Origin: Pleionea litopenaei
Lineage (GTDB): Bacteria; Pseudomonadota; Gammaproteobacteria; Enterobacterales; Kangiellaceae
Direction of reading: 5' to 3'
Assembly (NCBI RefSeq): GCF_031198435.1
Contig: NZ_CP133548.1
Location: forward strand, 2,266,001-2,330,000
DNA: 64,000 nucleotides
The position numbers and the translations under genes are program-made. The first letter of the stretch is position 1; each line of letters opens with the position of its first letter. Positions 8,391-45,006 of this stretch are shown piece after piece. Below the pieces are notes generated by a model. The model saw only the letters and a program-made list of their open reading frames with translations. It was not told where the DNA came from and did no database searches.

Positions 8391-8428
8391 AATAGGGCTG
8401 GGGTGAGAAAGTTTAAAAAAGTGAAAAT

Positions 8429-9052: not shown

Positions 9053-9066
9053 GCAAAGGAGTGAGC

Positions 9067-11454: not shown

Positions 11455-11488
11455 AGCTTTAAAAATTTAAAAAGAGAGAATTAATTTA

Positions 11489-15746: not shown

Positions 15747-15801
15747 TATTAAAGCGTTGGACACCAACTCTGTGCAAGTTTTAAATTAGGGAAAATCACA
15801 T

Positions 15802-18800
15802 ATGTCGTATGAAGCAACATTTGAAGGGTGGGATTTGCTAACCATAGAAGATCTGCTCATAGCCTATCGCAAGGCCAAGGCAGACTGCTTCTTTGAAAAC
15901 ACTTTCCCGACCGCCATTAAATTTGCGGAATATGAGCAGGACTTACTGGTCAACTTAAAGAAATTGCTAAAGTGCTTGAAGAGTGACTCGGGCTTTGAAT
16001 CCAATGATGACTTGCTGGGCGATTATCGCCTGCTTCCGAAGAAGCTCTCTACAGAAAAGAATGCTGACAGCGCAGATAATGGCCACGTACACTTTTCCAG
16101 ACCCGAACGAGCGGTTGAGAGCTTATTCAAAAACTACAGCATCACGCCAGAATTCAGAATTGTTGGCGACTTCCCGATAGATAGCCATGTGATATCCGCC
16201 CTTTGGATCAACATGGTTGGCCACAAATTAGATGCGAAGCTTGATAAATGTTGTTACGGTGCAAGACTAAAGCGAATTAGAAATGACGAGCTTTTCAGTG
16301 CTGAAGATGAAAAGCCATTTCATATCAGCTCCATTGGATCATTCGTTCCCTATTTCCAGCCGTACCAAAAGTGGCGCAATGATGGCCTAAAATCCATACG
16401 TGATGAATTGGATAAAGACCGCGATATTATTGCCGTCTCATTGGACCTCAAAAGTTATTATCATTTCATTGATCCAACCGCTTTGAATGGCGAAGCCCTA
16501 CTGAAATCACTTGAGTTGGAACTCGACGAAACTGAAATTGAATTCACAACTCAACTCGCCCGTTTCCTTAATAAATGGGCTGAAGGCGCTTCTGAGTTCG
16601 GCAAAGCCGTTGGAGGAAAGAAAGCCAATATCAGTGGTGGCCTGGTTATTGGCTTGACATGTAGTCGAATCGTTTCCAATGCCTTACTCCATAAGTGGGA
16701 TAGGCTGGTTCTTGAAAACCTCTCACCCATTCATTACGGCCGCTACGTCGATGATATGTTCCTCGTGCTACGCGACACGGGCACCATCACCAGTAGCTTT
16801 GACCTAATGCAAATGCTTCAAGCGCGAATGGGCAAAGACTGTGTTTCACAGAACTCCAAAAATGAAAAGGTTTGGGAGATCAATCAGGGAGCTGATATTC
16901 AGGGCGATACCAAAATATCGCTACAGTCTGACAAACAGAAGTTGTTTGTATTGCAAGGGCGAGCTGGTCTGGACCTTCTGGATAGCATTGAGAAGGAAAT
17001 CTACGAACTCTCCAGCGAGCATCGCCTCATGCCATCGCCGGACCAATTAGAGCATTCAACGGCTGCGAAGGTGCTCTCTGCTGCCGGTAGCGTGGGAGAA
17101 AGTGCAGACACATTAAGAAGAGCCGATGGCCTGACCATTCGCCGTTTAGGTTGGTCACTTCAACTCCGTCACGTAGAAACACTCGCTAGAGATTTACCAC
17201 CCAATCAATGGAAAGAACAGCGCGAGGAGTTTTATCAATTTGCGCACAACCATATATTGCGGGCAGATAATCTGTTTGCGCACTTTAACTACCTTCCACG
17301 ACTGCTGGGTTTTGCGATCAGCATGAACGAATGGGAACAAGCTGAGCGAATCGCGGTGAAGTCCTACCAGGCCATTGATACTTTGGCCTCTGAAGTTGGC
17401 AAGGGAAAAAAGGTTAAAATTAACGGGTGTGACGCTAAAGTTCTGAAAGACCTTTGGGGCTATATCAAGGGAACACTGACTTGGTTATTTATTGACGCTG
17501 CGACTCGATACTACGATCCGAACAAACTATTTCTGGGTGAGCGTTCAACGAAGAAGAAGCGGCTAGCCGATCTGTTTCTCAATCAAATCGTTGCAAATCT
17601 GACCGACTTTGAGGCGTTGCTTGACCTTCGCTTTGACGTGGCAGACTTCGAGACCAAAGCTCCGCTTGTCGCATTGGCTGATCTTGCAAAAGAAGCATAC
17701 AAATACATAGTTAGCAGCCACTCTGCTGAGAAATTGGTTGGCAAACGTGACACTAAGAAGGAGAAGCAGATACTGAAGCTGCTTGGCAGTTCTGGACTGC
17801 TCGACATAGATACATTTGAACAGTTTATCAACTCTACCCGTAACACAAGACTGGGTAAGGTAGTCAAGGGACCTCGAAAGAATGACAGTTACCTACCATA
17901 TCTCTTTCCCACCCGACCGTTGTCGCCGGCTGAAATATCAGAGTTAGCGCCAGAGTGCGTGGGCTTACCTTCGGCATCTGGGAAGGCTCCGATTTATGGA
18001 CCAGCAGTAACTTGGGCAAAATACACACAAGTGTTACGTGGGGTTTGGATAAAGCCTACACTGCTCGCTACTGCACAAGATGCCAATGACAAGCCATCGG
18101 GAAAAAGAAAGAAATACCTGAATATCGGCACCGACAACAAAGACAAGGTAGTTGTAGCTTTGACTAATCTTCGCACCGAAGACAGCGACTGGGCAGCTAC
18201 TGCGTGTGATAAACCAAATTTAAGTCGCAAGCGTTATCAAAAGATATCAAATCTGGTTAACGATACCCTGAAACTCAGCCCAAGACCGGATTATGTCCTC
18301 TTCCCAGAGCTCTCCATTCCTCTGCGATGGCTCAACAGTATCGCAGCCAGACTGAGTGCTGCGGGTGTTAGTCTAATAGCAGGAACCGAGTATCGGCATA
18401 GTGATGGCAACAAAATTCTTAGTGAGGCTGCACTAGTTCTTGCAGATAATCGCCTCGGTTACCCGACTTTTGTAAAGATCTGGCAGCCTAAGCTTGAGCC
18501 TGCTGTTGGCGAGGACAAGGACCTCACTGTGAAATACGGCAAGGAGTGGGATAAATCCAAAAAAGCGCTTAAACCGATCTATATTCATAACGGTGTAAAT
18601 TTTGGTGTCATGGTTTGTTCGGAACTCCAAAACAGCAAAGCGAGAATTCGTTTTCAGGGTGCCGTTGATGCCCTTATGGTTCTGAGTTGGAACAGGGATC
18701 TGGATACTTTTGCCTCTTTAATCGAATCAGCTGCATTGGACGTTCACGCTTATACCATCTTGGTTAATAATCGAAAATACGGGGATAGCCGAGTCCGCTC

Positions 18801-19005
18801 ACCAGCAAAAGAATCTTTCCTTCGAGATATCGCCCGCTTAAGGGGTGGTGACAATGACTTCGTTGTGGCAGCCACGTTGGATATTGCAGCACTGCGAGCT
18901 TTCCAAAGCCGAGCAAAACGCTGGCCTGAAGAAGGTGATAAATTCAAGCCAGTGCCTGAAGGTTTTAAACTACTGGGTGACCGAAAAAAGCTACCACCCA
19001 AATAG
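15802..19005 (+). CDS. drt1: DRT type 1 (UG1) antiphage reverse transcriptase with C-terminal nitrilase domain
   Basis: A 1067-aa fusion. The N-terminal half is a group II-intron-like reverse transcriptase: palm motif A SLDLKSYYHFID (near 213-224) and catalytic YVDDMFLVL near 315. A long helical linker follows. The C-terminal 270 residues form a carbon-nitrogen hydrolase with the Glu-Lys-Cys triad candidates FPELSIP (E), a lysine in WQPKLEP, and VMVCSEL (C). This RT plus nitrilase order defines the UG1/DRT1 antiviral class. An open frame follows kwaAB at 55 bp on the same strand, with a weak ribosome site, so it may share the hsd-kwa transcript. The biochemical role of the nitrilase in defence is not established from sequence. 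Confidence 0.93.
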   Translation: MSYEATFEGWDLLTIEDLLIAYRKAKADCFFENTFPTAIKFAEYEQDLLVNLKKLLKCLKSDSGFESNDDLLGDYRLLPKKLSTEKNADSADNGHVHFSRPERAVESLFKNYSITPEFRIVGDFPIDSHVISALWINMVGHKLDAKLDKCCYGARLKRIRNDELFSAEDEKPFHISSIGSFVPYFQPYQKWRNDGLKSIRDELDKDRDIIAVSLDLKSYYHFIDPTALNGEALLKSLELELDETEIEFTTQLARFLNKWAEGASEFGKAVGGKKANISGGLVIGLTCSRIVSNALLHKWDRLVLENLSPIHYGRYVDDMFLVLRDTGTITSSFDLMQMLQARMGKDCVSQNSKNEKVWEINQGADIQGDTKISLQSDKQKLFVLQGRAGLDLLDSIEKEIYELSSEHRLMPSPDQLEHSTAAKVLSAAGSVGESADTLRRADGLTIRRLGWSLQLRHVETLARDLPPNQWKEQREEFYQFAHNHILRADNLFAHFNYLPRLLGFAISMNEWEQAERIAVKSYQAIDTLASEVGKGKKVKINGCDAKVLKDLWGYIKGTLTWLFIDAATRYYDPNKLFLGERSTKKKRLADLFLNQIVANLTDFEALLDLRFDVADFETKAPLVALADLAKEAYKYIVSSHSAEKLVGKRDTKKEKQILKLLGSSGLLDIDTFEQFINSTRNTRLGKVVKGPRKNDSYLPYLFPTRPLSPAEISELAPECVGLPSASGKAPIYGPAVTWAKYTQVLRGVWIKPTLLATAQDANDKPSGKRKKYLNIGTDNKDKVVVALTNLRTEDSDWAATACDKPNLSRKRYQKISNLVNDTLKLSPRPDYVLFPELSIPLRWLNSIAARLSAAGVSLIAGTEYRHSDGNKILSEAALVLADNRLGYPTFVKIWQPKLEPAVGEDKDLTVKYGKEWDKSKKALKPIYIHNGVNFGVMVCSELQNSKARIRFQGAVDALMVLSWNRDLDTFASLIESAALDVHAYTILVNNRKYGDSRVRSPAKESFLRDIARLRGGDNDFVVAATLDIAALRAFQSRAKRWPEEGDKFKPVPEGFKLLGDRKKLPPK

Positions 19006-19009
19006 CACT

Positions 19010-20053
19010 CTATACACACCACCATTGCGAAATGTCGGCACTACGATCCGGATTTACCGGATCGATCAACGCCGCAAATTCAGTGGAAAATAAGCCCGAT
19101 TTCTCTATGAAACCCTGGAACAATTCAATCAATCCACCAAGTCTTGCTATCAATTCATCGGCTTCAACCGAAAACTCCGGAAAACGGTTATAGAATACCT
19201 CCCTCACCAGTTCAGCTCCTTTCGCACTAACGTCGGTTTCAGCCAGAAAAAGCCGATGAACGAGCCGGTATAAATCGACCACTAGGCCGCCCGTTTGGAG
19301 TTCTGAAGGGTTCCGGTGAAGCATCACAATATAGGCAGCTATTACGCCGCTGATAACATCCAATAGTAGCGCTTGTGCGAGACCATACGGCAGATGCGTT
19401 TGATTGTTGGGTTTAACCAAGTACATCAATGACGCACAAAGAGGGCTGACCGAATCATAGGGATTGATTCGTTCTGCAATGAATGGATAAGCCACAGGCC
19501 GCTTTTTCGACCACTCTACATAACGGCTGGATTTGCGATTTACTGATGAAGCCAGTGACTTGCTACCTCGGTAGGAAGTGAACTTTGGCCTCTCCAGGTT
19601 CGGAATTCTTGGAATGAGGGCACATACAGCGGAGCTAACCGCGCCTAAAATTTCGTCAGCCTCTTTCAGCACTTCCGAACAATTTGGCTGATTGTTACGG
19701 CTTATCAAATCCAATGCGCACAGAAACGTTTGTTCTGGAGAATCGACTCCACGACTTCGCCATTTCCCCGTTAAGTCCTCCCCAAATAGACCACCCATCA
19801 AATCTGTCGTGGTACTACTGGGCAAAGCTTTACCCTTTCGCCAATTAAAAAACGGATTACGTGGGACATCAAATCGTTTTTTAGCGTCTTTGAAAGTGGA
19901 TGTGTATTTATTTATATGGTCGTGACGGTTGTATTTTCCTTCAGATAAAGGCGGTCGCGCCTCCAGACACTTCCGCTCGAACTCCCTGGCCAGAATCCGG
20001 GCGCGTAGCGGATTGGCGGGAAATTCAGATACTCCTTTGCCCTGGGCTCTCAT
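19010..20053 (-). CDS. Unrecognised 347-aa protein, convergent with DRT1 and divergent from the rep genes
   Basis: I do not recognise this family. The N-terminus is basic (many Arg/Lys in residues 1-65), followed by a possible helix-turn-helix-like patch (VPRNPFFNWRKGKALP). The C-terminal two thirds look helical, without transmembrane segments. It ends 4 bp from the DRT1 stop. It is read away from the AlpA-repA-repC operon, with 105 bp between the two starts and a palindrome over its own start. The position suggests a regulator of the replication operon or a stability function; this is inference only. Confidence 0.6.
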   Translation of the reverse strand: MRAQGKGVSEFPANPLRARILAREFERKCLEARPPLSEGKYNRHDHINKYTSTFKDAKKRFDVPRNPFFNWRKGKALPSSTTTDLMGGLFGEDLTGKWRSRGVDSPEQTFLCALDLISRNNQPNCSEVLKEADEILGAVSSAVCALIPRIPNLERPKFTSYRGSKSLASSVNRKSSRYVEWSKKRPVAYPFIAERINPYDSVSPLCASLMYLVKPNNQTHLPYGLAQALLLDVISGVIAAYIVMLHRNPSELQTGGLVVDLYRLVHRLFLAETDVSAKGAELVREVFYNRFPEFSVEADELIARLGGLIELFQGFIEKSGLFSTEFAALIDPVNPDRSADISQWWCV

Positions 20054-20158: not shown

Positions 20159-20365
20159 ATGAATACTCAAACAAACACCGAACGATATTTAACTTACGAG
20201 CAGGCGGCATCCTTGCTTTGTATGTCAACTGGCGGCCTCAGAAACCGAATGTGTCGGGGCGAACCTATGCCGCCATCCGTCAAGATTGGTCGTCGCAGAC
20301 TGTTTCCTGAATCAGCTCTCCATACCTGGCTTGCGGAAAGACGGGAAAGCGGGGAGGAAATATGA
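20159..20365 (+). CDS. AlpA/excisionase-type helix-turn-helix protein
   Basis: A 68-aa single-domain MerR-like HTH (YLTYEQAASLLCMSTGGLRNRMCRGEPMPPSVKIGRRRLF split by a wing) of the AlpA/Xis class. Such proteins act as excision directionality factors or as activators in integrative elements. Its stop overlaps the repA ATG, so it leads the replication operon. It could control excision by the distant integrase, repA transcription, or both. Confidence 0.82.
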   Translation: MNTQTNTERYLTYEQAASLLCMSTGGLRNRMCRGEPMPPSVKIGRRRLFPESALHTWLAERRESGEEI

Positions 20366-21198
20366 ACCATTCCGACTACATCAATATCCGTCACGCTTTT
20401 GAGGTAGAGCCCCCTCAACTCGACTACGTAATGCCCAACATGGTCGCAGGAACGGTGGGGTCGCTGGTTTCACCAGGAGGTGCAGGGAAATCCATGCTGG
20501 CCCTGCAATTGGCCGCACAAGTTGCTGGCGGTACTGATTTGCTGGACATCGGTGAAATCACTACTGGCAATGTTGCATATCTCCCCGCAGAAGATCCGCC
20601 AATAGCAATCCATCATCGTCTCCACGCATTAGGCAAACACATGTCTGCAGAGCTGCAACAGATCGTGGCAGATAGATTGTTGATTCGCCCCTGGATCGGC
20701 CATTGCCTCGACATAATGAGCAAAGGACTCCTGGATCAACTACAGCAACTTGCAGAAGGTCGTCGCCTGATGGTGCTGGATACGCTTCGGCGATTCCATA
20801 TCGAGGAAGAGAATTCCAGCGGCCCTATGAGTCAAGTGATCAGCCGCATGGAATATATCGCGGCTCAAACCGGTTGCTCCGTGGTATTTCTCCATCACAC
20901 CAATAAAAGCGTTGCCATATCTGGCACTGGTGACCAGCAACAGGCCAGCAGAGGGTCGAGCGTGTTGGTTGATAACATTCGTTGGCAATCCTATCTCACC
21001 TGCATGAGTCAGGCAGAAGCCGAAAATTACGGGGTTGACCAGTCACAGCGTGGCTACTTCGTGCGGTTTGGGGTGAGCAAAGCCAACTACGGCGCACCGT
21101 TTAAAGAACGTTGGTTTCGTCGAAATGAAGGCGGTGTACTAACACCCGCAGTACTGGAGCCTAGCAAAAACAGAGGGGCTCGCCGTGACGAAATTTGA
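20362..21198 (+). CDS. repA: IncQ-type replicative helicase RepA (RecA-fold AAA ATPase)
   Basis: A 278-aa hexameric helicase of the RSF1010 RepA/DnaB-like fold. Walker A is SPGGAGKS near residue 38, Walker B-like VLDTLRRF near 138, and an SVVFLHHTNK strand follows at 172. The length matches RSF1010 RepA (about 279 aa). RepA would unwind DNA at an iteron origin bound by RepC. It overlaps the HTH gene by 4 bp and repC by 14 bp. No RepB primase is encoded nearby, unlike in IncQ plasmids. Confidence 0.88.
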   Translation: MNHSDYINIRHAFEVEPPQLDYVMPNMVAGTVGSLVSPGGAGKSMLALQLAAQVAGGTDLLDIGEITTGNVAYLPAEDPPIAIHHRLHALGKHMSAELQQIVADRLLIRPWIGHCLDIMSKGLLDQLQQLAEGRRLMVLDTLRRFHIEEENSSGPMSQVISRMEYIAAQTGCSVVFLHHTNKSVAISGTGDQQQASRGSSVLVDNIRWQSYLTCMSQAEAENYGVDQSQRGYFVRFGVSKANYGAPFKERWFRRNEGGVLTPAVLEPSKNRGARRDEI

Positions 21199-22132
21199 TC
21201 TTACACACGCACGGCACGACCCCGCGCATTGCTTAGCCCCAGGTCTGTTCCGTAGCCTAAAAAAGTGCGGCGGACGAAAAAACGGCAAGCTGGACGTTAT
21301 CTATGAGTTTGGCAAAGGTCAGCGAATTGAATTTAGTGGCCCTGAACCTTTGGGGGTTGATGATCTCCGAGTTCTGCAAGGCTTGGTGGCGATGGCTGGC
21401 CCAGCGGGCTTGGTTCTTTCCCCTGAGCCCGTAACTGACACCGGATTGCAACTACGTTTGTTGATGGAACCCAAATGGGAAGCCATGCAGCAAAATGCAA
21501 TGGTAGTTAAAGGGAGCTACCGATCCCTTGCCAGGGAAATTGGCAAAGCCAACATTGACGACACTTTATCAATACGCGACTGCATAGAACGCCTTTGGAA
21601 GGTTTCTATTATCGCTCTTTCTGATGGTAAGCGCCGAGGTTTCAGACTGCTTGCCGAATACGCCAGCGATGATACGGCAGGCAAATTGTTTGTTGCGCTG
21701 AATCCTATGATCGCACAAGCAATTATGGGTGGAAACCAGCATGTGCGCATCAACATGTGGGAAGTGCGCTCACTAAAAAGTGATGCGGCCAGGCTCATGC
21801 ATCAACGCCTTTGCGGCTGGATTGATCCAGGGAAAACACGACGCGTGGAGCTTGACACGCTTTGCTCCTATATTTGGCCCGATATGGCAAGCGCATCAAC
21901 AATGCGGAAACGCCGTCAACGTGCCAAAGCTAGCCTAGCTGAACTGATGGCGATTCAGTGGACGGTAACCGAATACGCAAAGGGCAAATTCTTAATCACC
22001 CGACCAACCCACGATAACGGTCACGCCTCCCACGATATCAGTCACGAATCCCCCCGAAAACGGTCACGCACAGGTAACGTCAACCTCACGGATGACAAAG
22101 GCTTGGGAGCAGTTGAAGGATGCCATCCATGA
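21185..22132 (+). CDS. repC: IncQ-type replication initiator RepC
   Basis: A 315-aa iteron-binding initiator. Two winged-helix domains are expected (about residues 90-160 and 190-275), with the family stretch NMWEVRSLKSDAARLMHQRLCGWIDPG visible near 200-226. The start is GTG within the end of repA. The C-terminal tail after about residue 275 is encoded by three 21-bp direct repeats and looks like overlaid DNA signal rather than a folded domain. It gives the element potential for autonomous copying after excision. Confidence 0.86.
   Translation: MTKFDLTHARHDPAHCLAPGLFRSLKKCGGRKNGKLDVIYEFGKGQRIEFSGPEPLGVDDLRVLQGLVAMAGPAGLVLSPEPVTDTGLQLRLLMEPKWEAMQQNAMVVKGSYRSLAREIGKANIDDTLSIRDCIERLWKVSIIALSDGKRRGFRLLAEYASDDTAGKLFVALNPMIAQAIMGGNQHVRINMWEVRSLKSDAARLMHQRLCGWIDPGKTRRVELDTLCSYIWPDMASASTMRKRRQRAKASLAELMAIQWTVTEYAKGKFLITRPTHDNGHASHDISHESPRKRSRTGNVNLTDDKGLGAVEGCHP
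22008..22070 (+). repeat. Three tandem 21-bp repeats (iterons) inside the 3' end of repC
   Basis: Units at 22008-22028, 22029-22049 and 22050-22070 align without gaps. Positions 1-3 are CCC in all, positions 7 and 9 G and A, and the GTCACG core recurs in every unit, preceded by ACG in the first and third. RepC-type initiators bind 20-22-bp iterons, so this is the likely RepC binding site, placed unusually in coding sequence. Confidence 0.7.
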
Positions 22133-22863: not shown

Positions 22864-23145
22864 ATGACAGTTTATTCAGTACAGCGTTGTAACACCCAAG
22901 ACGAGCAAATCATTCTCGATGTAGATCATTGGTTGATTCGAATATATGGTCGTCAAACATCCTTAAGCGCGCCACTTCATCACGCAGAACTAACGCACGC
23001 TGAAATATGTGATTATGAAGGAGGTTTATTAAGCATCAGTTCAGGCGGTTGTTGTACAAATGTCACATTAACGTTAGCGGAATTTATACAAGTATTTCAT
23101 TATTTCGGACTGATTAAAGAATTCATAGTGGAGCAAAGCGCATGA
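22864..23145 (+). CDS. Hypothetical protein (93 aa)
   Basis: ATG at 22864 follows GGAG at 22852; the upstream ATG at 22849 sits on that ribosome site and is less likely. Mostly beta-type sequence with two adjacent cysteines (SGGCCTN). It overlaps the next gene by 4 bp (ATGA). No family recognised. Confidence 0.55.
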   Translation: MTVYSVQRCNTQDEQIILDVDHWLIRIYGRQTSLSAPLHHAELTHAEICDYEGGLLSISSGGCCTNVTLTLAEFIQVFHYFGLIKEFIVEQSA

Positions 23146-23432
23146 GCATTTCAAATCGATATAGCTATGCTCTTTTCTGTGAAAGACTCGATCGCCAGGG
23201 AGTATCCAGAAAAGCCGAATACTTGGACAATTTTAAGAAATCTGTGGTTGTTCACGCGTTGCAAAACTGCGCTTTTATTACATTGCTACTTTTACTTTGT
23301 GCGGTTTTTATTCCTGAGATCAATAACATCAGCTTCCCAGGGGGGCTATTTCTGATGTTTATTTTTGGGCACACTGCGTGGATTTCTCGGTCATGGGCGG
23401 AAAAATTAAAGAAGGAAAGATTTCATGAGTGA
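23142..23432 (+). CDS. Small membrane protein (96 aa)
   Basis: Two hydrophobic segments (about residues 35-55 and 60-80) between a basic N-terminus and a charged tail. It overlaps the genes on both sides, so it is part of the small-gene run 22266-23814. Its proximity to the TraY/DotA homologue allows a link to transfer or exclusion, but nothing in the sequence proves it. Confidence 0.55.
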   Translation: MSISNRYSYALFCERLDRQGVSRKAEYLDNFKKSVVVHALQNCAFITLLLLLCAVFIPEINNISFPGGLFLMFIFGHTAWISRSWAEKLKKERFHE

Positions 23433-23814
23433 TCTACTGATGAACCAACGTGAAACCCTTAAATGGGCTGAACGACTTGCCAGTGATGACTGGGGCAGCC
23501 AAGTCTGGGAGTCTCTTGGGCTTGGCGTAGGCTGCGGCCTATTGTGGTTGTTTGGGCTGTTCGTTCTAATGACATGCCTCGTGCCACCCATGCGCCGCAA
23601 GGTTCATGCTTGGACAAACATCTACTTGCCATGGAATAGTTGTGTTGGCATTTTTCTATTACAAGGAATCGCCGGGATAATGGGGCATCCAGCGCTTTTT
23701 TCTGTAGGGGTGTTAGCTTATTGGATCAACAGCGCGATTCCAGTATGGCTACTGGAACCTATCGCTGAGTTTTCTAACCGGTTAACTGTCATTGGCTGGT
23801 TAACCTGGGCATGA
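23425..23814 (+). CDS. Small membrane protein (129 aa)
   Basis: Three hydrophobic helices (about residues 25-52, 70-90, 92-110). It overlaps the previous gene by 8 bp and ends one base before the stop of the convergent TraY/DotA gene. Family not recognised. Confidence 0.55.
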   Translation: MSDLLMNQRETLKWAERLASDDWGSQVWESLGLGVGCGLLWLFGLFVLMTCLVPPMRRKVHAWTNIYLPWNSCVGIFLLQGIAGIMGHPALFSVGVLAYWINSAIPVWLLEPIAEFSNRLTVIGWLTWA

Positions 23815-26136
23815 TCATTTTGGACTTAACATCTTACTCATTTTTGACATGCCCGCTTTAGCCGCTCCGGCAGCATTTTTTAATCCGCCTCCAGCAGCGT
23901 CAAACATGTTTTTCGCTCCGCTACGAGTCTTATCACGCATAGAGTGACCAGCACCGCTCACGACTTTTGCAGCGCCGCCAACAAATATGGATCGCCCTTG
24001 CTGTTCTTGGCTGGCTTCGCCCAGATTCTCTTGACCACCGCCTATATAGCGCAAGACTTTATCAGGGATCTCATGAATAAGGCCAAACGACCGGTGCGCA
24101 ATCTGCATGAGGACTGTTGTAAAAATGGCCAGCATGGCAAAAAGCGTGACCACTCCACTTAATGAATCTGCAAGCATTCCAGACATCGCCGGTAAAAAGA
24201 TGAGCATCAGTACCTTGGCCATTACAATAACCAGCAACATGCCTGCAATGAATCCAAAGATCGCTAGGGTTGGCCTCAGAAAAAGACTCAGGGCAACCAT
24301 GTAACCTGCTTTGGCCCTTTCGCCAACAAACCCATTACCTTCCGGAAAAACATGACTGGCAGCCCAAACCGGAGCCGCTATCACTGCCTCAATAAGTAAT
24401 ACAAACCACCCTGCTACCCCCATGATCCAAAGAATCATCGGTGTTGCTGGAATATAGAATGCGAGCATTAAAGCAATGGGGATCAATAGCATTCCCGCGC
24501 CGACGAGAGACCAAAGGGTCTTATTAGTAATTCTGCAGAGTGAACTGGTCACAGGCCGAGCTGCGCCGCCTATCAAACCGCCCACAGCCTCACTCGTATC
24601 GTCAGCCACACAGGCCGCCAGATCAGTTAAAAATGCCCCTGCTAATGCGACTTCAAATGAGCCGATGATCATGTGACCAACATTAGCCATACCGGTAATC
24701 GGGTCAGGTTCGGACAGCGCGAAGTTGAGAACGCTCTCGGTGCGATTCATAACGAAATTCAGGCTATCATTATTTTCAGCATAGCTGGATCGTTCCATCG
24801 CGTTAACAGTGGCACCGTTGCTGTTTGTGACAAGCATATTTTGTCGGTAGCCACTCAAAGCATCGATAAACATTGAATAATCATCATGCTCAATAGCATC
24901 TGACGTTGGGCCTGCCAACTCGGCTTTTACCGAGGTCATTTTTTGTGTTTCAGCGTTGATACGCTGAAAATCCCAATACCAAGCACCAACTGTTATCCAG
25001 CCAGCATCTCGTGCACCGACTGTAGTACCCGCGACATCAGGATTGCCGTTTGCCCACTTATTGATTCGCAGAGTCGCAATTTCTGACATTGCCTCATTGA
25101 CGGCTTTTTCATACTCAAACTTAAATTGTTTAACTGCGTCGTTATACGCGAGCGGGTCAGGATCAGGGGCAGAGTCATCAACGGCTTTTTGCACTATTTG
25201 ACGAGCCAGAGGGTCAAGATCCGCATCAAGATCGGCATAGATACCGACGACCTTGGTTTGAAAATTTACCACTGCTGAGTCAATAGCGGTGCCTTCGTCG
25301 ATTTCAGCAAATTCTAACTTGACCGAACCGCAGGGATTTGAACCATAGTAGCGAGGTACTCCGGCTGAAAAATCCGACAGCCAGGCTGCAGTATATGCGC
25401 CTGCCGCACTGACAAGGTTGTAATAACTATTGTACCTCTGCATCACGATATGCTGAGGGGCAATTTCAATCGACGATGCCACACCAGGTGTACGCAAATC
25501 GGTCGATGATACACCTTCAACAATTTCAATGGGTTCATCCACGACATTAACGTGTCTGTCCGCGGTGTTGATGCCGTGCATACATACACGCGAATTGAGC
25601 ACCTGCATCGCGGTACTTTCATAATTCACACTGATTTGCGCAGGGTATAAAGTACCCGTTCCAGACATATGATCGAGCGCGGCATTCCAGGTAGTATTCG
25701 CCAGCCCAATTCCGTGACCCGCTAACCATAAAACGCCAATTTGCATTACCGAGTATCCGCCTGCAAACGGCATCACGAATGACAAGGCAATTACCACTCT
25801 AATTGGCACCCACATACTATTGTAAAGTTTGCCAAGTGGTACGCCTTCGTGAGCCGAGTTCAGGAGGCCCGTTAGAAAAATGTAACTAACAATCAGCCCG
25901 GTAAATACAAGCATTCCAGTATTCAAAATCAGAGACATTGCACCCAAAATTGAATCTGGACTGGAAGGGCCAGTTCCACCGGTAATAATATCAACCGTAC
26001 TGCCGAAAATATAACGTAAGTACTCTACGCTTTTGTCGTCAGCGGCAACGTCTGTTATTGATGTTGTTTGAGCGAAAACCCCATCACTCAGGAGTAGCGG
26101 GAGAAGTACATACGCTAGCGTTTTCAATATCTTCAT
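23815..26136 (-). CDS. DotA/TraY family type IVB secretion inner-membrane protein, isolated
   Basis: A 773-aa polytopic protein with a signal peptide (cleavage near GVFA-QT), an N-terminal TM cluster (about residues 65-145), a large periplasmic domain (about 150-470) and a second TM group (about 480-690). The C-terminal tail is Gly/Ala-rich. Size and layout match TraY of IncI plasmids (about 745 aa) and DotA of Legionella. No other Dot/Icm or Tra secretion gene is present in the window, so it cannot form a transfer channel alone. In IncI1 plasmids TraY is the protein recognised by entry exclusion, suggesting that it modifies a helper apparatus. Its start overlaps the TraD/MobC-like gene by 53 bp. 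Confidence 0.85.
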   Translation of the reverse strand: MKILKTLAYVLLPLLLSDGVFAQTTSITDVAADDKSVEYLRYIFGSTVDIITGGTGPSSPDSILGAMSLILNTGMLVFTGLIVSYIFLTGLLNSAHEGVPLGKLYNSMWVPIRVVIALSFVMPFAGGYSVMQIGVLWLAGHGIGLANTTWNAALDHMSGTGTLYPAQISVNYESTAMQVLNSRVCMHGINTADRHVNVVDEPIEIVEGVSSTDLRTPGVASSIEIAPQHIVMQRYNSYYNLVSAAGAYTAAWLSDFSAGVPRYYGSNPCGSVKLEFAEIDEGTAIDSAVVNFQTKVVGIYADLDADLDPLARQIVQKAVDDSAPDPDPLAYNDAVKQFKFEYEKAVNEAMSEIATLRINKWANGNPDVAGTTVGARDAGWITVGAWYWDFQRINAETQKMTSVKAELAGPTSDAIEHDDYSMFIDALSGYRQNMLVTNSNGATVNAMERSSYAENNDSLNFVMNRTESVLNFALSEPDPITGMANVGHMIIGSFEVALAGAFLTDLAACVADDTSEAVGGLIGGAARPVTSSLCRITNKTLWSLVGAGMLLIPIALMLAFYIPATPMILWIMGVAGWFVLLIEAVIAAPVWAASHVFPEGNGFVGERAKAGYMVALSLFLRPTLAIFGFIAGMLLVIVMAKVLMLIFLPAMSGMLADSLSGVVTLFAMLAIFTTVLMQIAHRSFGLIHEIPDKVLRYIGGGQENLGEASQEQQGRSIFVGGAAKVVSGAGHSMRDKTRSGAKNMFDAAGGGLKNAAGAAKAGMSKMSKMLSPK

Positions 26137-26443
26137 TTTCTATAATCTCCCAGCTACGTGAAGCCAAAAATTTTCGGTCGGTTTGTCGAGTTGCGTGTCG
26201 GTTAAGTAATTCAGTCAGACCAGCCTTGAAGCGTTCATTGATTTCTGCTTCTGCCCAAATACAAGATCCAATAATCATTAGTTCTCTATTTCTGTTTTTA
26301 CGACTTTGTGCTTTTTGTTGATGTAAAAAATCGGAGAGTTGTGCAGTCAATTGATCGTGCTTTTTAAGTTGCTCAGCAACTTTAGAATCAATCGATGCTA
26401 ACGCCCGCAATTTTTTATCGTCGCTTGGTTTGAGTCTCGCCAT
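26084..26443 (-). CDS. TraD/MobC-like mobilization accessory protein
   Basis: A 119-aa helical protein. A coiled-coil-like N-terminal half precedes the segment RNRELMIIGSCIWAEAEINERF and a basic stretch LLNRHATRQTDRKFL. This pattern resembles the small TraD/MobC proteins that help relaxases melt oriT. ATG 26443 is chosen because GGAGGA lies six bases upstream. It is divergent from the relaxase, as mobC and mobA are in RSF1010, with the oriT candidate between. Confidence 0.65.
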   Translation of the reverse strand: MARLKPSDDKKLRALASIDSKVAEQLKKHDQLTAQLSDFLHQQKAQSRKNRNRELMIIGSCIWAEAEINERFKAGLTELLNRHATRQTDRKFLASRSWEIIENEDIENASVCTSPATPE

Positions 26444-26824
26444 CGGTATTCCTCCAAATATTTCATCCACTTAATTCTTTCAGTGAAGGCAAAAGATCGA
26501 AAGGAAAAAGTGTACTTTTCGGAACTTTTTTGCTGATTGGGTAGTTGACATACCTTAGTCTTAATTGCAGGCGACATCAGTTAAAAGCTATTGCGCAGTT
26601 CAAGTGCATGTAGGGGCGCACGTTAGCGAGTATTGCACGTTGGTTAGGGATGGCACGGACTAAGGCCCTCTGCCGATGAAGAGCGCAATTACGAGAAGTG
26701 TTCCACTTCTCCTTGCGGCAGGGGAATCCCCTGCACCCCAAAAACACAAAACTGAAAATCAACTGATGTCGATTTTTTATAAAAACATTTAAGCCTAATT
26801 GACTGATGGGAGGTGGTTTATTCG
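26444..26824. other. Divergent intergenic region with candidate oriT
   Basis: On the minus strand, 26609-26626 reads TAACGTGCGCCCCTACAT, close to the IncQ/MobQ nick region consensus TAAGTGCGCCCT. Nearby are two perfect hairpins: GAGAAGTG/CACTTCTC (about 26692-26710) and GCAGGGG/CCCCTGC (about 26717-26733). Position between a MobC-like and a MobA-like gene read apart from each other matches RSF1010 oriT. The exact nick site is a prediction; the plus-strand hairpins could instead be the relaxase-binding repeat. Confidence 0.55.
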
Positions 26825-28264
26825 ATGGCAATTTTCTATCTAAAAACCATTCCTGTGTCGCGCTCAAAAGGCCAATCTGCAACGGCAGGATCTGCCTACA
26901 GGGCAGGTGAAAAGATCACAGATCAACGCACAGGTCAGGTGCACGATTACACCAATAAAAGCGGCATTGTAGAAACAATGCTGTTTAACAATTTCGATTT
27001 AACCAGAGAAGAACTTTGGAACATGAGTGAGCTATCAAACACTAGAAAAAACTCTCGTGTAGCTCGTGAATTTCAAGTCGCCTTACCACACGAATTGGGG
27101 CGTGAAAACCATAAAAAAATACTCGAACAATACGCAAATATGCTTGTACGCCGGTACGGCGTTGCTGTTGACATAGCAATACATTCTCCTGGCAGGGAAG
27201 GTGATCACAGGAACGTTCACGCTCACATTTATTGCACGACCAAGGTAATGCAAAACGGCCAACTTAAAACCAAATCCTTACTTGAGTTAAGTGATACAGA
27301 TTTAAGGAAAATGGGGCATATGGTGGGAAAGAAACAAGTTAAGTTCTGCAGGGCCTATTGGCAACGCTGCGTTAACTCTGAATTTAGAAAATTAGGAATG
27401 AGTGAGCGCATTTATCACCGCTCAAATGAAGACAGGAAATTGTCTCGCATTCCACAGGTTCACGTCGGGCCTCACGGTACATTATTGGCCAGACGAGGAA
27501 AGGGCCACTTATCAGATGAGTGGCAAATTAACCAAGCGATTATCGCTTACAACAACGTCATCTCGATTGATGACGCGAGGAAAAATACGATGCAAAACAC
27601 ACCAACACAAGCAACAAAAAATACGGCGCAAACAACTAAGGCTGCTGCACAAATTAGCGGTCTAGCGGCCTCACTCGACGCAGCAGAAGAGGCCCGGATT
27701 CTGGCCCATAAAAGTGCTGACTTTCAGCAAAAGCAAAAGGCCACTGATGTTGATAGTGCACGCTGGAAACCTGCAAACATAGACCCTCAAAAGGGCGCTG
27801 TAATTGACATGTTTCAGCAAGATAGCCAAGGCGTATATCGCTGGACAAAAGGCAAGAGTGAGGGTCAAGAGGCTTTCCGAGATACAGGGAAATCAATCCA
27901 TAGCCAGACAATCAACTCATGGGCATTAGCGGCAGAATTAGAATTGGCTAAACAGAAAAAAGATGCTGGAGAATGGAAAGAAATCCGAGCGTTTGGATCG
28001 GAGGAATACCGCCGTGCAGTATGGATACAGGGTCAGACTATGGGCATTCAAGTAGAAGGTTACAAACCGACTACGCAAGAGTTGGCCAAGTATGCCCTAC
28101 AGCCATCACAAGGACTGGCAGGCGATCAAAAATCTATTCCGAAAAACACTTTTTCGGCAGAGGCGAAATTCCAGAACAAATTCGATAACCAGGAGCCAGA
28201 ACAAACAAACAGCAGTATGGCTGAGGCAAATACTCAACGACATTCTCGTTCACCAAAAGTTTAA
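26825..28264 (+). CDS. mobA: MobQ-family relaxase (MobA/MobL)
   Basis: Nicks the element at oriT and pilots the strand into a recipient. It starts at ATG 26825 with the family N-terminus MAIFYLKTIPVSRSKGQSATAGSAYRAGE (split here by the catalytic region). The histidine motif HRNVHAHIYCTT near residue 125 corresponds to motif III. The relaxase domain covers about residues 1-210; the 270-residue tail is polar and lacks a primase domain, unlike RSF1010 MobA-RepB. The GTG at 26813 is a poorer start because it overlaps the GGGAGG site. Confidence 0.9.
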   Translation: MAIFYLKTIPVSRSKGQSATAGSAYRAGEKITDQRTGQVHDYTNKSGIVETMLFNNFDLTREELWNMSELSNTRKNSRVAREFQVALPHELGRENHKKILEQYANMLVRRYGVAVDIAIHSPGREGDHRNVHAHIYCTTKVMQNGQLKTKSLLELSDTDLRKMGHMVGKKQVKFCRAYWQRCVNSEFRKLGMSERIYHRSNEDRKLSRIPQVHVGPHGTLLARRGKGHLSDEWQINQAIIAYNNVISIDDARKNTMQNTPTQATKNTAQTTKAAAQISGLAASLDAAEEARILAHKSADFQQKQKATDVDSARWKPANIDPQKGAVIDMFQQDSQGVYRWTKGKSEGQEAFRDTGKSIHSQTINSWALAAELELAKQKKDAGEWKEIRAFGSEEYRRAVWIQGQTMGIQVEGYKPTTQELAKYALQPSQGLAGDQKSIPKNTFSAEAKFQNKFDNQEPEQTNSSMAEANTQRHSRSPKV

Positions 28265-28281
28265 AATCGGAGCACACCATT

Positions 28282-28758
28282 ATGAGCAGAGATCAAATTG
28301 ATGAAGTTAAAAATCGAGTAATGCAATTACAGGAAAAGCTTGGCTGTAAAATCCAGGCGTCCATTTATAGTGGGGCAAATTATGACGATGATTTTAAGGC
28401 ACTGGCTCATTCAAGCCGAATGTCTGTCATCGCCTTTCAGAAGGACGCTGAAGTTAAAGACGCCTATGGTGGAATCCCCGAAGATTTATACGCAGTTCGC
28501 ATAGCGGCTGAGGACATTGGCGAAATTCCCTTTCCGTTGTTATGTGAGGCTGTCTATGAGCTTGGTAACGGTGAGAATAGCAAACCAGCCTTTAGCGATC
28601 ACACTCTGGCAATGGCCTCGCTGGTAACGGCAGTTACAAGCAGTCTTGACCCTGACCAACTCTATAATTTCCTAGTGGCCGCTAAGGAGCAAGACAAAAT
28701 TACTGATGACCAGTTCCTATTGGCAACCAAGCACTTTTTAACTACCGAGGAGGAGTAA
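28282..28758 (+). CDS. Hypothetical protein downstream of relaxase (158 aa)
   Basis: A soluble acidic helical protein, codirectional with mobA (17 bp) and the next gene (3 bp). No motif recognised. Operon position suggests an accessory gene of mobilization. Confidence 0.55.
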   Translation: MSRDQIDEVKNRVMQLQEKLGCKIQASIYSGANYDDDFKALAHSSRMSVIAFQKDAEVKDAYGGIPEDLYAVRIAAEDIGEIPFPLLCEAVYELGNGENSKPAFSDHTLAMASLVTAVTSSLDPDQLYNFLVAAKEQDKITDDQFLLATKHFLTTEEE

Positions 28759-29037: not shown

Positions 29038-29149
29038 TCTATCGAACGAGGTGGATTCTCGATTTTATGCGTTTTTCGACATTTAGTGTAGAATTATGAT
29101 CACCGCACACTTCACTTTAGTTCCCAGCTTATGGAGGAAAAGGGTAATC

Positions 29150-29830
29150 GTGACTTTGGATGACGTAAAACAATTAATAAAAGACGGGCGAATCAAATCG
29201 GATACGGCGGTCATAGATGAAGGGGCTTTGACGCTTACCAAAGGAGGCACAAGCCCCTACAAGGTATATCATGGCTGGGATATAGCCTCATCCCTTGAGT
29301 GTGATGAACGGTGGGGGCGTTCGAATCTCGAACTTTTTGAATATATAGAACAGCAAAATTTCGATGATAGTAAATTAGAAGAAGTTTTAGCTAGCGTTCA
29401 AACGGAAGACCACCATTGGAATTGGTTTAAAAAATCAGTTGGCACTACTGGAGATGAATATGAGTGGTTCTACTTATATGCTGGTAGCGAGCCTCAAGCG
29501 GCGTGCTTGATTTATCATCCCAAGGACAGTGCTCTAGGGAATTCAAATATATTTTATGTAGAATTTTTAGCAGTAGCCCCTTGGAACAGAAGTTGTTTAG
29601 TGAGGGAACGAAAATATTTGGGAGTAGGGTCGGCTCTTCTTAAAACAGCACTTAGCTTCTCCGTTAATAAACTAGGCCTCTCACCAGGTTTTTCTTTGCA
29701 CTCTTTACCCCAAGCGAGCGGTTATTATTCAAAATTAAAAATGGTGAATATCGAGAACAGAAACAAGGACACATTGCTGTATTTTGAGCTACCTCAGCTT
29801 GAAGCCAACAAATTATTGGGGGTTGCATGA
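29150..29830 (+). CDS. GNAT-fold N-acetyltransferase-like protein, first gene of the right cargo cassette
   Basis: A 226-aa protein. The C-terminal half looks like a GNAT fold: a strand FYVEFLAVAPWN, then an acetyl-CoA loop-like RKYLGVGSALLKTALSFS, then SGYYSKLKM near the end, as in GNAT motif B. The N-terminal 100 residues are unrecognised. GTG 29150 behind AAGGG is preferred; an ATG at 29096 lies in a likely -10 box (TATGAT 29095-29100). It overlaps the next gene by 4 bp. It may modify a target, or be the toxin-like partner of the peptidase; both are inference. Confidence 0.65.
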   Translation: MTLDDVKQLIKDGRIKSDTAVIDEGALTLTKGGTSPYKVYHGWDIASSLECDERWGRSNLELFEYIEQQNFDDSKLEEVLASVQTEDHHWNWFKKSVGTTGDEYEWFYLYAGSEPQAACLIYHPKDSALGNSNIFYVEFLAVAPWNRSCLVRERKYLGVGSALLKTALSFSVNKLGLSPGFSLHSLPQASGYYSKLKMVNIENRNKDTLLYFELPQLEANKLLGVA

Positions 29831-30720
29831 GTAACAAGAATGAAAATGACACCCTTAACGATTGGCGTGATTTTTCAGTTATTGGGGATACCTCAGTCTC
29901 TACGGCAGCCGACCTTTATAAAAGCTATAAGGTATATAAAGAGCGTTTCAAATCTCTTCCCAAATCAGAATTGGTAAAACGCGGATGGATATCTTCTAAA
30001 GAGGATACATCGTCTTTGGTCAGTTACTTCCGAGATATACATGCGGAACAAGGCTCAGCCTTATATAGGAAGGCCAACACTGCCAATACCTCGTTAATTT
30101 CACTGTGGCTATCGAAAGTTAAATCCCAGGCTGAAATGGAAATCATATTGAGACCCGTTCCTCGATTTGAAGGTATAAGCAGAGAAAAACTACGAGAAAT
30201 AGCCCAATTAAGCGTTGATGTAAATGTCTTAACCGAGTTACCTCGCATACTTTCCGAAATCGGTATCGTTCTTGTTTATATCCGCGCTTTGCCTTCTATG
30301 AAGCTAGATGGCGCTGTCTTTAAAGTTGCTTCTGAAAAACCTGTAATTGGATTAAGCCTTAGGTATTCACGCCTTGATTATTTTTGGTTTACATTACTAC
30401 ACGAGCTTTCGCACCTCCATTTACATATGGATATTTTAGATACTCCTATTCTTGAAGATTTTGACTTGGAATCCAATAGTGAAATCGAAGTCTCTGCCAA
30501 CAGATTGGCCAAGAGTACTTTTGTAGAGCGTAGAGTATGGCGAAATTGCGAACCGAAATACAACAAAAGTTTTGATGCAATAGATAAGTTTGCAGATCAG
30601 ATCGGCATACATAGAAGCATTATTGCTGGGATGTTGCGAAAAGAATTTGGAAACTATGCTTCTTATAGCAAGATTGTAAATGAATATGATGTCAGGGAGA
30701 TTATCTTTAATGGAAGTTGA
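29827..30720 (+). CDS. ImmA/IrrE family metallo-endopeptidase
   Basis: A 297-aa zinc peptidase of the DUF955 type. The active site helix is LLHELSHLHLH near residue 195, giving HExxH (HELSH), with downstream acidic SEIEVSANRLAK supplying the third ligand glutamate (E-x3-N/A pattern). ImmA/IrrE proteases cleave repressors or antitoxins in response to stress or phage. There is no fused XRE domain. It overlaps the GNAT-like gene by 4 bp and the beta-family gene by 11 bp, so the three are coupled. Confidence 0.88.
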   Translation: MSNKNENDTLNDWRDFSVIGDTSVSTAADLYKSYKVYKERFKSLPKSELVKRGWISSKEDTSSLVSYFRDIHAEQGSALYRKANTANTSLISLWLSKVKSQAEMEIILRPVPRFEGISREKLREIAQLSVDVNVLTELPRILSEIGIVLVYIRALPSMKLDGAVFKVASEKPVIGLSLRYSRLDYFWFTLLHELSHLHLHMDILDTPILEDFDLESNSEIEVSANRLAKSTFVERRVWRNCEPKYNKSFDAIDKFADQIGIHRSIIAGMLRKEFGNYASYSKIVNEYDVREIIFNGS

Positions 30721-31789
30721 ATATGTGCCATTTCTAAAGAGTAAACAAAACGAAATCCATGCTCTTGCTGAACTGGATAAAGATATATTGATCAAGATAG
30801 CTCCTTTTTTTGATTACCCCAAAAAGCAGGGAGGAGATTCGGCTCTAGATATTGGTGCTGCCATTGCTCGACTTGCAAAGAAGTTTAAGAAGCACCTTGG
30901 CGGCATCAAGGAGTTTTATTTTGATATATATGATCTTGATGATAGTTTAGAAATTGACGGTAGACATTTGTATGGATTCCTTCTGGAACAATTCACAGGA
31001 TTACCTCTCGTACCGGTAGTCTCCATTGATCGAAGTAACGAACATCAGGAAAGTGTAATTCAATCGAAAGGTTTGAAACATGTATCTTCGAGCACGGTGG
31101 CTTTTCGAGTTACACCAGAAGATTTTCAGAGTTTTGGGGTCGTTAGTGAAGATATCAAGGATATGCTCAGACCAGTTTTTTCCGTTTTTGAATCAGTTGA
31201 CCTAATTTTCGATTGTAGAATCTGCTCTAATTTAGATGCTGAAACAATATCTAAGCAAATAGACGATTTCACGAGAAATTTTACTTCTTCTTACCAGGTT
31301 CGAAAAGTTGTGATTGCTGGCTCATCCATTCCCGCTTCTGCCGCAGAAATTCTTTCATCAAATAGCGAAGAGTATGTCGATCGTATTGAAATTGATATTT
31401 ATGGTAACGCTAGAAGCTTGGGTGCCGTAGATTATGTGTTCGGTGACTACACTACTATTAGCCCCGATTACTCTGATGCTGATATTCCTGGGGAACAGAT
31501 GCAGGGGCGAATTACAGCTAAATTTATTTATTCTTTCGATGGACAGCACTATTTTATTAGAGGAGGCTCTTTGAAGACGAAAGGCCGAGACCAATACTAC
31601 GATTTAGCGGCCGTACTTTGTTCCAAAGAGTTTTTTCGAGGACCAAAATATTCTCCTGGTGATGCTTATTTTTATGAAAAAAGTCGTAGAGAGGGGGATC
31701 AGTGCTGGGTAAATACTGTAATTCGGCCAGCAATTAATGCACATATAACATATGCAGTTAAAGATCTATTAACAGACAATCTTCTCTAG
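30710..31789 (+). CDS. 'Beta family' protein (sce7725-like), function unknown
   Basis: A 359-aa protein whose opening EVEYVPFLKSKQNEIHALAEL and the IKIAPFFDYPKK segment are characteristic of the Beta_protein (sce7725) family. That family commonly sits beside sce7726-family genes in accessory DNA. ATG 30710 is chosen, because the upstream codons overlap deep into the peptidase gene. The last 21 bp overlap the convergent sce7726 gene. A TIM-barrel-like alternation of strands and helices is suggested by the spacing, but this is not proved. Confidence 0.8.
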   Translation: MEVEYVPFLKSKQNEIHALAELDKDILIKIAPFFDYPKKQGGDSALDIGAAIARLAKKFKKHLGGIKEFYFDIYDLDDSLEIDGRHLYGFLLEQFTGLPLVPVVSIDRSNEHQESVIQSKGLKHVSSSTVAFRVTPEDFQSFGVVSEDIKDMLRPVFSVFESVDLIFDCRICSNLDAETISKQIDDFTRNFTSSYQVRKVVIAGSSIPASAAEILSSNSEEYVDRIEIDIYGNARSLGAVDYVFGDYTTISPDYSDADIPGEQMQGRITAKFIYSFDGQHYFIRGGSLKTKGRDQYYDLAAVLCSKEFFRGPKYSPGDAYFYEKSRREGDQCWVNTVIRPAINAHITYAVKDLLTDNLL

Positions 31790-32329
31790 TTCTCTGCTCA
31801 CCAATAAGTCACAGATGCTATTGCTTAGCTCAATTTTTTTCTTATTACTCGAAATCAGTTGAGCTAAAAAGTCTCTGGGTTTTCTTTTGTGTTTTTGTTC
31901 ATCGAGAATTGAGAGCATCTCGCTTTTCCAGAGAGTTAATAAAGCCAATTCCTTACAAAACTCAGGGTTTGTCTTTGCTCCACGAACATGCCTAAGTCTT
32001 AGATTGTTTGCACCATCATCGACTGCAACCATAATTCCCCAGAAGATCGGGCAAATAGAAAGTGCTTTCTCTAAGTGGTTTTCAGTTGTTACAAGAGTAA
32101 TTTTTCTAAAAGAAGAATTGTAGTACCTGCCTTGTGTAAGTACGCGCTCTACTTTGTCTCCACTTCCCTTTATTTCGTAGCAATGAGCCTCTGTGTAAAG
32201 TGCAACCACATCAGCTATGGCATTACCATTACATACTTGCAACTCTTCAATAATTGCCTTTGGCTTGGAGGATTGGCCTTGTAATTTTATTTTTAGAGCG
32301 GCTCTAATTTCTTGATCGTTTAGTTTCAT
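31769..32329 (-). CDS. sce7726 family protein (putative PD-(D/E)XK-like nuclease)
   Basis: A 186-aa protein with the family pattern IRAALK near the start, a conserved NGNAIADVVALY, then YEIKGSGDKVERVLTQGRYYN. The order D...(E)IK followed by a Q-x3-Y helix resembles PD-(D/E)XK nucleases. GGGGGAGG lies just upstream of the ATG. It is convergent with, and overlaps by 21 bp, the beta-family gene that usually accompanies it. Confidence 0.8.
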   Translation of the reverse strand: MKLNDQEIRAALKIKLQGQSSKPKAIIEELQVCNGNAIADVVALYTEAHCYEIKGSGDKVERVLTQGRYYNSSFRKITLVTTENHLEKALSICPIFWGIMVAVDDGANNLRLRHVRGAKTNPEFCKELALLTLWKSEMLSILDEQKHKRKPRDFLAQLISSNKKKIELSNSICDLLVSRELEKIVC

Positions 32330-32341
32330 GCCTCCCCCTTT

Positions 32342-32608
32342 TCATAATAGTGATATACATAATTCAGTACTGATTATACGTGATCCATCCTGATTTATCG
32401 ATGTTGCAATTCTGAAAATGCCTCGACTAACCCCGCTCATGCGGTTTTCGGCACCTTCCTGCTCATTTGAAAGCATGCAGCAGATATGCGCGGGCAGAGG
32501 AATTGGCCCGTCTTCAACCACGACATAATTGTAACGGCTTCGCTCAGCGGGCAAAGCGGCATCATATTTAGCTTGAGTTACCAAAAAACGTGGAACATAC
32601 ATTTCCAT
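32342..32608 (-). CDS. Hypothetical protein coupled to the integrase (88 aa)
   Basis: Its ATG overlaps the integrase stop codon (TAATG arrangement), so it is translated from the integrase transcript. It contains three cysteines and a beta-rich N-terminus (YVPRFLVTQAKY). No family recognised; a role with the integrase is possible. The right copy of the 13-bp repeat (32440-32452) falls inside it, so its C-terminus may have been altered by cassette insertion. Confidence 0.55.
   Translation of the reverse strand: MEMYVPRFLVTQAKYDAALPAERSRYNYVVVEDGPIPLPAHICCMLSNEQEGAENRMSGVSRGIFRIATSINQDGSRIISTELCISLL
32440..32452 (+). repeat. Right copy of 13-bp direct repeat around the right cargo cassette
   Basis: TGCGGTTTTCGGC, identical to 29025-29037. 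It lies in the 88-aa gene next to the integrase. Confidence 0.55.
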
Positions 32609-33837: not shown

Positions 33838-33982
33838 ATACTCTCCGGGGTTACACTGGGGTTACATCACAATAAGATTTAATATTACTTAGAGTTATCT
33901 ATATGTATATAAATATCTTTAGAAACAACAAGTTAGTTATATATTGTGATGTTGTGTGATACCGGATTATATAAATAAAAGA

Positions 33983-34029
33983 GACTCATAATCGGCAGGT
34001 CCCCAGTTCAAGTCTGGGAGGGCCCACCA
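33983..34029 (+). pseudogene. 3' half of the split CAT-anticodon tRNA (right attachment site)
   Basis: It begins with the 11-bp core GACTCATAATC (33983-33993). It continues through the variable loop, T-arm CCCCAGTTCAAGTCTGGGA, acceptor AGGGCCC and CCA. It pairs with the 5' half at 8350-8390, not with the intact copy. No D-arm or 5' acceptor precedes it, so it cannot be a functional tRNA. Confidence 0.8.
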
Positions 34030-34056
34030 TTTTTACACTTTCACTGTGATCCCTAC
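34007..34056 (+). repeat. Left copy of the ~50-bp repeat flanking island 2
   Basis: The stretch from TTCAAGTCTGG through CCACCATTTTTACAC to GTGATCCCTAC recurs with four differences at 51162-51210. It includes the tRNA 3' end and 27 bp of downstream flank. Confidence 0.8.
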
Positions 34057-44977: not shown

Positions 44978-45006
44978 TGACCACACTCTCCACTTTATAT
45001 TTTTCT

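Follow-up and report, generated by a model that had tools for sequence, protein, structure and literature searches.

TraY and DotA are VirB6-class proteins; in the middle of the machine they form a pentameric gate (PMC12857230, PMC12624023), which is assigned to DotA/IcmX (PMC12857230). In IncI/L/M plasmids, ExcA of the recipient acts on TraY of the donor, and loss of excA from pOXA-48 lowers the exclusion index from ~490 to 2 (PMC12365149). Exclusion specificity of IncI1 and IncL/M plasmids resides in segments of TraY, and the traX-traY-excA block has apparently passed as a whole between IncL and IncM (PMC12365149); recognition by ExcA is reported to involve the central TraY region for R64 and the TraY C-terminus for R621a (PMC12365149). 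Proteins of this class also travel on mobilizable elements. TraG_S of SGI1 cancels the exclusion exerted by IncC plasmids, taking the index from 160 to 1.6 (PMC5389848), and both GIsul2 and an IncP island carry TrbJ-TrbK-TrbL, which have been interpreted likewise as a means of exclusion evasion (PMC5704250).

We analysed a 64,000-nucleotide stretch of the Pleionea litopenaei genome, hereafter the window, in which a 25.5-kb integrative mobilizable element (IME) encloses an open reading frame for a solitary TraY. A 15.9-kb sister element occupies the same tRNA-Met site in Cellvibrio, flanked by a perfect 47-nt tRNA-Met repeat and carrying an integrase with 83% identity, and a 15-kb contig of Hahella ganghwensis keeps the core made of relaxase, accessory gene, traY and membrane gene.

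The element and its lone traY

The features of the element that the following argument draws on are:

8459–8512: left att repeat, within the 3' end of tRNA-Met; 54 nt, 94% identical to the right copy
33983–34036: right att repeat; 54 nt, 94% identical to the left copy
32608–33837 (−): tyrosine integrase of the element, with Phage_integrase and Arm-DNA-bind_3 domains; 83% identical to its counterpart in the same-site Cellvibrio element
20362–21198 (+): RepA-like helicase (AAA_25, Pfam E 4e-31); 68% to the Cellvibrio element
21185–22132 (+): RepC replication protein (Pfam RepC, E 8.5e-137), forming an IncQ-like pair with RepA; 76% to the Cellvibrio element
26813–28264 (+), start maybe at 26825: MobQ-type relaxase (Pfam MobA_MobL, E 5e-47) with a C-terminal LPD7 domain (E 1e-12)
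28282–28758 (+): 158-aa ORF after the relaxase; 41–42% to homologues in the Hahella and Cellvibrio sister elements
26652–26694 (+): putative oriT core GGCACGGACTAAGGCCCTCTGCCGATGAAGAGCGCAATTACGA, the best-conserved block of the relaxase/accessory intergenic regions in the three elements compared
26084–26470 (−): soluble accessory ORF of 118–128 aa upstream of traY, overlapping the traY start by 53 bp; mobilization-accessory-like by position
23815–26136 (−): traY, solitary DotA/TraY (VirB6-class) inner-membrane protein of 773 aa, starting with ATG and free of internal stops

The left att repeat falls in an intact tRNA-Met (8429–8505). A truncated copy of this tRNA gene (8350–8414) lies directly upstream of the intact one, and a similar extra partial copy is present at the Cellvibrio locus (L004, 18359–18399). 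Close to both ends of the element, an identical 21-nt sequence, GGGGTTACACTGGGGTTACAT, occurs at 8649–8669 and 33847–33867, and the Cellvibrio element has it at each end as well; these copies are probably integrase arm sites. The relaxase matched the NCBIfam MobQ model NF041496 at E 4e-55 with 186.6 bits, the equivalog cut-off being 200. Relaxase and accessory ORF diverge from one intergenic region, with traY following the accessory ORF. The conserved block in this region resembles Q-type oriT cores and may be the oriT core of the element. The accessory product has no Pfam family match and aligns at 28–32% with counterparts of the Hahella and Cellvibrio elements, where they likewise stand between relaxase and traY; an assignment to IcmV/TraX was rejected, as it contains no hydrophobic segment. 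With an integrase and flanking att repeats at tRNA-Met, a relaxase of its own, no complete MPF and a putative oriT, the element is structurally an IME.

It is also a defence island. The cargo in 9061–19005 and 29096–32329 comprises a type I restriction system (EcoAI-type HsdR, HsdM and HsdS), Kiwa (KwaA/KwaB), a DRT reverse transcriptase of the UG5-nitrilase kind and PD-Lambda-2-like genes, together with a weak match to 'cll'. A 347-aa protein of no known family (19010–20053) shares 55% identity with a Cellvibrio gene that occupies the corresponding end of the replication block. Immediately beyond the right att site, a phosphorothioation-type Ssp system (36304–49351, with SspG and SspC matches) includes a 1783-aa protein with an FtsK/SpoIIIE domain at 36304–41655.

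A preliminary description of this DNA had proposed that the traY product is a full-length DotA/TraY homologue in an element devoid of any other secretion gene, and both parts of this proposal stood up. The intact protein aligned with positions 2–656 of the 656 in the NCBIfam model TIGR04346 (DotA_TraY) at 403 bits and E 2.3e-120, the curated cut-off being 100 bits, and scored 306.6 bits against the T4SS DotA equivalog NF033886, under its 500-bit cut-off. Its predicted topology consists of an N-terminal signal-like helix and six more hydrophobic segments. No Pfam model matches the window TraY or its immediate membrane neighbours, an IMG/VR scan returned no relative, and Legionella DotA (9ngy) is the only solved relative. 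Whole-genome searches covered DotA, DotH and DotI: the window copy is the only DotA/TraY in the 4.42-Mb genome, and neither DotI (PF11393) nor DotH (PF12293) was found anywhere in it, both profiles having detected their targets in a Teredinibacter plasmid used as positive control. Within the element, the larger ORFs were scanned with Pfam and NCBIfam, which revealed the relaxase and neither a coupling protein nor any other T4SS gene. No helper was found in the own genome of the element.

TraY on sister elements, a conjugative plasmid and small plasmids

The TraY orthologues of Hahella, Cellvibrio and a Teredinibacter conjugative plasmid are 73%, 62% and 62% identical to the window protein. TraY is intact in every sister element and has been kept while size (15.9 to 25.5 kb) and cargo vary. 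This retention in the Cellvibrio and Hahella elements indicates that TraY is a core gene of the IME family and no stray passenger. Solitary TraY was found in four genomes. A further genome, G124, has a lone traY placed immediately behind genes for a MOBF relaxase and a coupling protein, with no small membrane gene or other exclusion candidate beside it. Several of the class-wide TraY matches that we inspected were rejected as solitary on account of other T4BSS genes alongside, as was the TraY of genome G683, which sits in a T4SS gene cluster.

The closest TraY of a conjugative system is that of Teredinibacter purpureus Bs12_MP (NZ_CP060093), a 249-kb plasmid whose transfer genes include a DotB-like ATPase, DotC/DotD-like proteins, two DotI, DotH, a VirB10-like protein and a coupling-protein-like one. 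In the tree, its TraY falls among those of the elements (support 93/84). The helper is likely to be a marine I-type plasmid such as Bs12_MP, rather than an IncI1 plasmid.

Solitary traY recurs on replicons of another kind. The preliminary description had suggested looking for it in related elements. Those of Cellvibrio and Hahella do carry it, and so do, on unrelated mobilizable backbones, seven plasmids of 13.7–38.5 kb, in which traY is directly followed by a small gene and a direct search did not find DotI:

Xanthomonas: X. axonopodis NZ_CP053650, X. fragariae NZ_CP071956, X. vasicola NZ_CP034654
Burkholderia: B. multivorans NZ_CP090752
Pseudomonas: P. viciae NZ_CP035089, P. orientalis NZ_CP094352, P. 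syringae pPT14-32

Carriers were classed by record size and the direct DotI search, the MOB-suite labels being unreliable (they class pEMT1 as mobilizable despite its tra cluster). In the small plasmids, the gene 3' of traY encodes an ExcA homologue (hhalign probability 95.5%, E 1.4e-8 over 101 columns, against R64/pCTX-M3 ExcA), and several of them have, upstream of traY, a gene whose likeness to a TraX-like ORF was judged by eye. The small-plasmid layout therefore equals the traX-traY-excA block of R64.

As a control, we used tra genes of pEMT1 as queries: plasmids below 45 kb, among partly non-independent records, accounted for 8/50 close homologues of TraY versus 0/114 of DotH, TraW and TraU taken together (0/36, 0/42 and 0/36, respectively; Fisher p 5e-5). 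The eighth traY record, beside the seven plasmids, is 40 kb long. TraY is singled out among the T4SS genes compared. Between plasmid pairs its dN/dS is 0.13–0.14, and TraY of the plasmid family is under purifying selection; the same ratio for the window and Hahella traY is saturated and uninformative.

TraY-like sequences were also noted elsewhere. A second TraY, a broken one, is present in each of two Xanthomonas citri plasmids (NZ_CP022264.1, 1982–3925; NZ_CP030165.1, 22102–24008); the former has a full I-type system besides, and the latter an intact TraY at 144108–146231 and no DotI. PP438435.1 and PP438407.1, labelled Dolichospermum phage, contain TraY-like sequence of ~36% identity and are possibly plasmid sequence in assemblies.

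Membrane genes beside traY and a candidate specificity segment

Two small membrane-protein genes neighbour traY, and one segment of TraY stands out in comparisons with its relatives:

23425–23814 (+): 129-aa small membrane protein, candidate exclusion protein; convergent with traY and abutting it
23142–23432 (+): 96-aa small membrane protein; overlaps the start of the 129-aa gene
24496–24648 (−): traY codons 497–547, candidate exclusion-specificity segment, from its identity contrast with the rest of TraY

The 129-aa family adjoins traY in 4/4 cases (window, Hahella, Cellvibrio and Teredinibacter Bs12_MP), and Bs12_MP is the only plasmid match that carries it, in the same convergent arrangement. 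Identities to the window protein are 57% in Hahella, 30% in Cellvibrio and 25% in the Teredinibacter plasmid (E 1e-10), and across the family they range from 24 to 57% versus 62–73% for TraY, which evidences a much faster divergence of the neighbour. The protein has hydrophobic segments and an all-helical predicted model (pLDDT 65). It was rejected as an ExcA (hhalign probability 0.2% against the R64/pCTX-M3 ExcA profile) and also as a relative of the ExcA homologues of the small plasmids (0.6%). The exclusion role that the 129-aa protein may have is suggested by where it is encoded, how small it is, its membrane nature and its rapid divergence, and its gene beside traY is the strongest local clue to a reading of the locus in terms of exclusion. 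The 96-aa protein has a weak Cellvibrio relative (22%, E 1e-6), and in Hahella and Teredinibacter its place is taken by small membrane ORFs of 75 and 161 aa, respectively, that are not homologous to it. The latter, an unannotated ORF of Bs12_MP (L002, 23546–24031, minus strand), lies upstream of the 129-aa family gene.

This comparison covers four TraY sequences, and similarity of the partners goes along with greater overall similarity of the TraYs. The window and Hahella proteins share 86% identity in segment 497–547 (73% elsewhere), whereas all other pairs average 34% (65% elsewhere). None of 10,000 column permutations reached this contrast, and p was 0.0004 with blocks of 10. The 129-aa partners group alike, with 57% identity for the window and Hahella versus 24–39% for the other pairs. 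In the plasmid family, too, the contrast peaks in the homologous segment (X. axonopodis 469–519, corresponding to 492–534 of the window protein), and this segment of the small-plasmid TraY is 29–47% identical to that of the conjugative pEMT1 TraY versus 60–70% elsewhere. Conserved along with a conserved partner and collapsed elsewhere, segment 497–547 behaves in these alignments as a candidate specificity segment. An AlphaFold model of TraY built from three sequences reached a pLDDT of 33 and was unusable for placing the segment on the structure.

Proposed role of the cassette and comparison with known systems

An intact solitary traY, its linkage with mobilization genes and a membrane gene, its recurrence and a covarying segment were observed directly. 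We read the locus, with a probability of about 0.6, as a transfer-retuning TraY plus exclusion cassette of an IME reliant on an I-type (IncI/Dot-like, MPF_I) helper. In the presence of the helper, the element TraY would be expressed with the mobilization genes and would enter the helper machine, either replacing the helper TraY or mixed with it. Given the differing segment (~497–547), the helper exclusion protein would fail to recognize the refitted machine, and the element could thereby get into cells in which the helper is already present. In element-bearing recipients, the 129-aa protein would act as the cognate exclusion protein and stop redundant entry through the refitted machine. Both the incorporation of the element TraY and the escape from helper exclusion are proposed here from sequence comparison. 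The preliminary description had put forward that the element TraY replaces that of the helper and so opens cells already holding it; this idea is well motivated and partly supported by the comparisons above, and the description made no mention of the 129-aa gene. Speaking against the reading are a genome that yielded no helper, the dissimilarity of the 129-aa protein to ExcA, and G124, where traY has no small membrane gene at its side.

The main rival to this reading holds that transfer is improved without any involvement of exclusion, the element TraY adapting the helper machine to the substrate of the element, with improved gating or coupling for the MobQ relaxosome and thereby more transfer. 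The position of traY directly behind the mobilization accessory ORF, which it overlaps, and away from the putative oriT speaks for such an adaptation, as do the placement of the G124 traY directly after a relaxase and a coupling protein with no exclusion candidate, and the observation that SGI1 tra genes also raise the transfer rate (PMC5389848). However, it leaves unexplained the conserved neighbouring membrane gene, the ExcA homologue beside traY in the small plasmids, and a divergence peak confined to one segment that tracks the partner. Moreover, matching to the relaxase is not evident, given that a single TraY family works for Q-, P- and F-type relaxases alike. We consider this explanation unlikely.

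It is distinctly less probable that the element TraY poisons the helper through dominant-negative mixed pentamers, cutting helper transfer or fertility as satellites do. VirB6-class proteins are pentameric and mixed rings are possible (PMC12857230), and SGI1 lowers the transfer of its helper (PMC5704250); yet a poison would not need a full-length and strongly constrained protein (dN/dS 0.13), and it would block the transfer of the element as well. Least credible is that traY and its neighbour are the functionless leftover of a degraded conjugative element: loss of tra genes is indeed a known route from conjugative to mobilizable elements (PMC11389934), but decay of this kind fits neither the persistence of an intact TraY in all sister elements despite their variable size and cargo, nor the purifying selection acting on it in the plasmid family, nor its recurrence across several backbones, each time with traY and in no case with DotH, TraW or TraU.

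If the retuning reading is true, hitch-hiking elements repeatedly beat the exclusion barrier of their helpers by carrying just the donor-side target, and the strategy extends to conjugation machines of a third class and to two or more kinds of carrier, small plasmids as well as integrated elements. This reading would also explain the possible spread of defence-gene islands and small plasmids among helper-occupied cells, predict a new exclusion-protein family, and offer a ready experimental system for the recognition of TraY/DotA by exclusion proteins that points to a 50-residue segment. The TraY cassette probably comes with an exclusion-protein family not recognized before. We put forward more tentatively, and at somewhat less than even odds, a broader view in which the 129-aa protein is a new, ExcA-unrelated type of I-system exclusion protein recognizing TraY around 497–547, TraY and the exclusion gene form a mobile cassette traded and diversified by mobilizable elements and helpers, and capture of a VirB6-class gene plus an exclusion gene is general across F-, P- and I-type systems. 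A literature search, with subscription journals largely outside its coverage, returned no report of a lone TraY on mobilizable elements.

Among known systems, the SGI1 family (islands at trmE/dusA/yicC with IncC helpers; PMC5389848, PMC8409611) resembles the window element in being an integrated mobilizable element with its own VirB6-class protein. SGI1 is, however, F-type (MPF_F), also carries TraN/TraH and has no canonical relaxase, whereas the window element is I-type with a MobQ relaxase and a lone TraY; in addition, no exclusion gene is identified beside traG in the cited work (PMC5389848, PMC8409611), in contrast to the membrane gene that neighbours traY. Membership of the SGI1 family, defined by the core genes MpsA, SgaC, TraN and TraG, the trmE/dusA/yicC site and an IncC helper, was rejected for the window element, which sits at tRNA-Met, has a MobQ relaxase and a TraY, and yielded no F-type tra genes. 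The closest architectural precedent is provided by GIsul2 and the IncP island (PMC5704250): both combine a VirB6-class protein and a small gene for entry exclusion within an IME, and the IncP island has its own relaxase. They differ in being P-type (MPF_T), in including the VirB5 protein TrbJ, and in having TrbK as exclusion protein, the function there being a proposed one.

IncI1 R64 and the IncL/M plasmids, with traX-traY-excA (PMC12365149), share with the window the TraY family and an exclusion gene, here a candidate, beside traY. Their block is nonetheless part of a complete conjugative system, the window TraY is distant from that of R64 in the tree, and the window neighbour is convergent and not ExcA-like. 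Teredinibacter Bs12_MP is set apart from the element by a full I-type transfer region and by a strongly different TraY segment 497–547 and neighbour. Legionella DotA belongs to the same TIGR04346 superfamily, but the window protein scores under the DotA equivalog cut-off and comes without an effector-secretion system. The strategy thus has precedents in F- and P-type systems, and the window element is the first I-type case found in this analysis.
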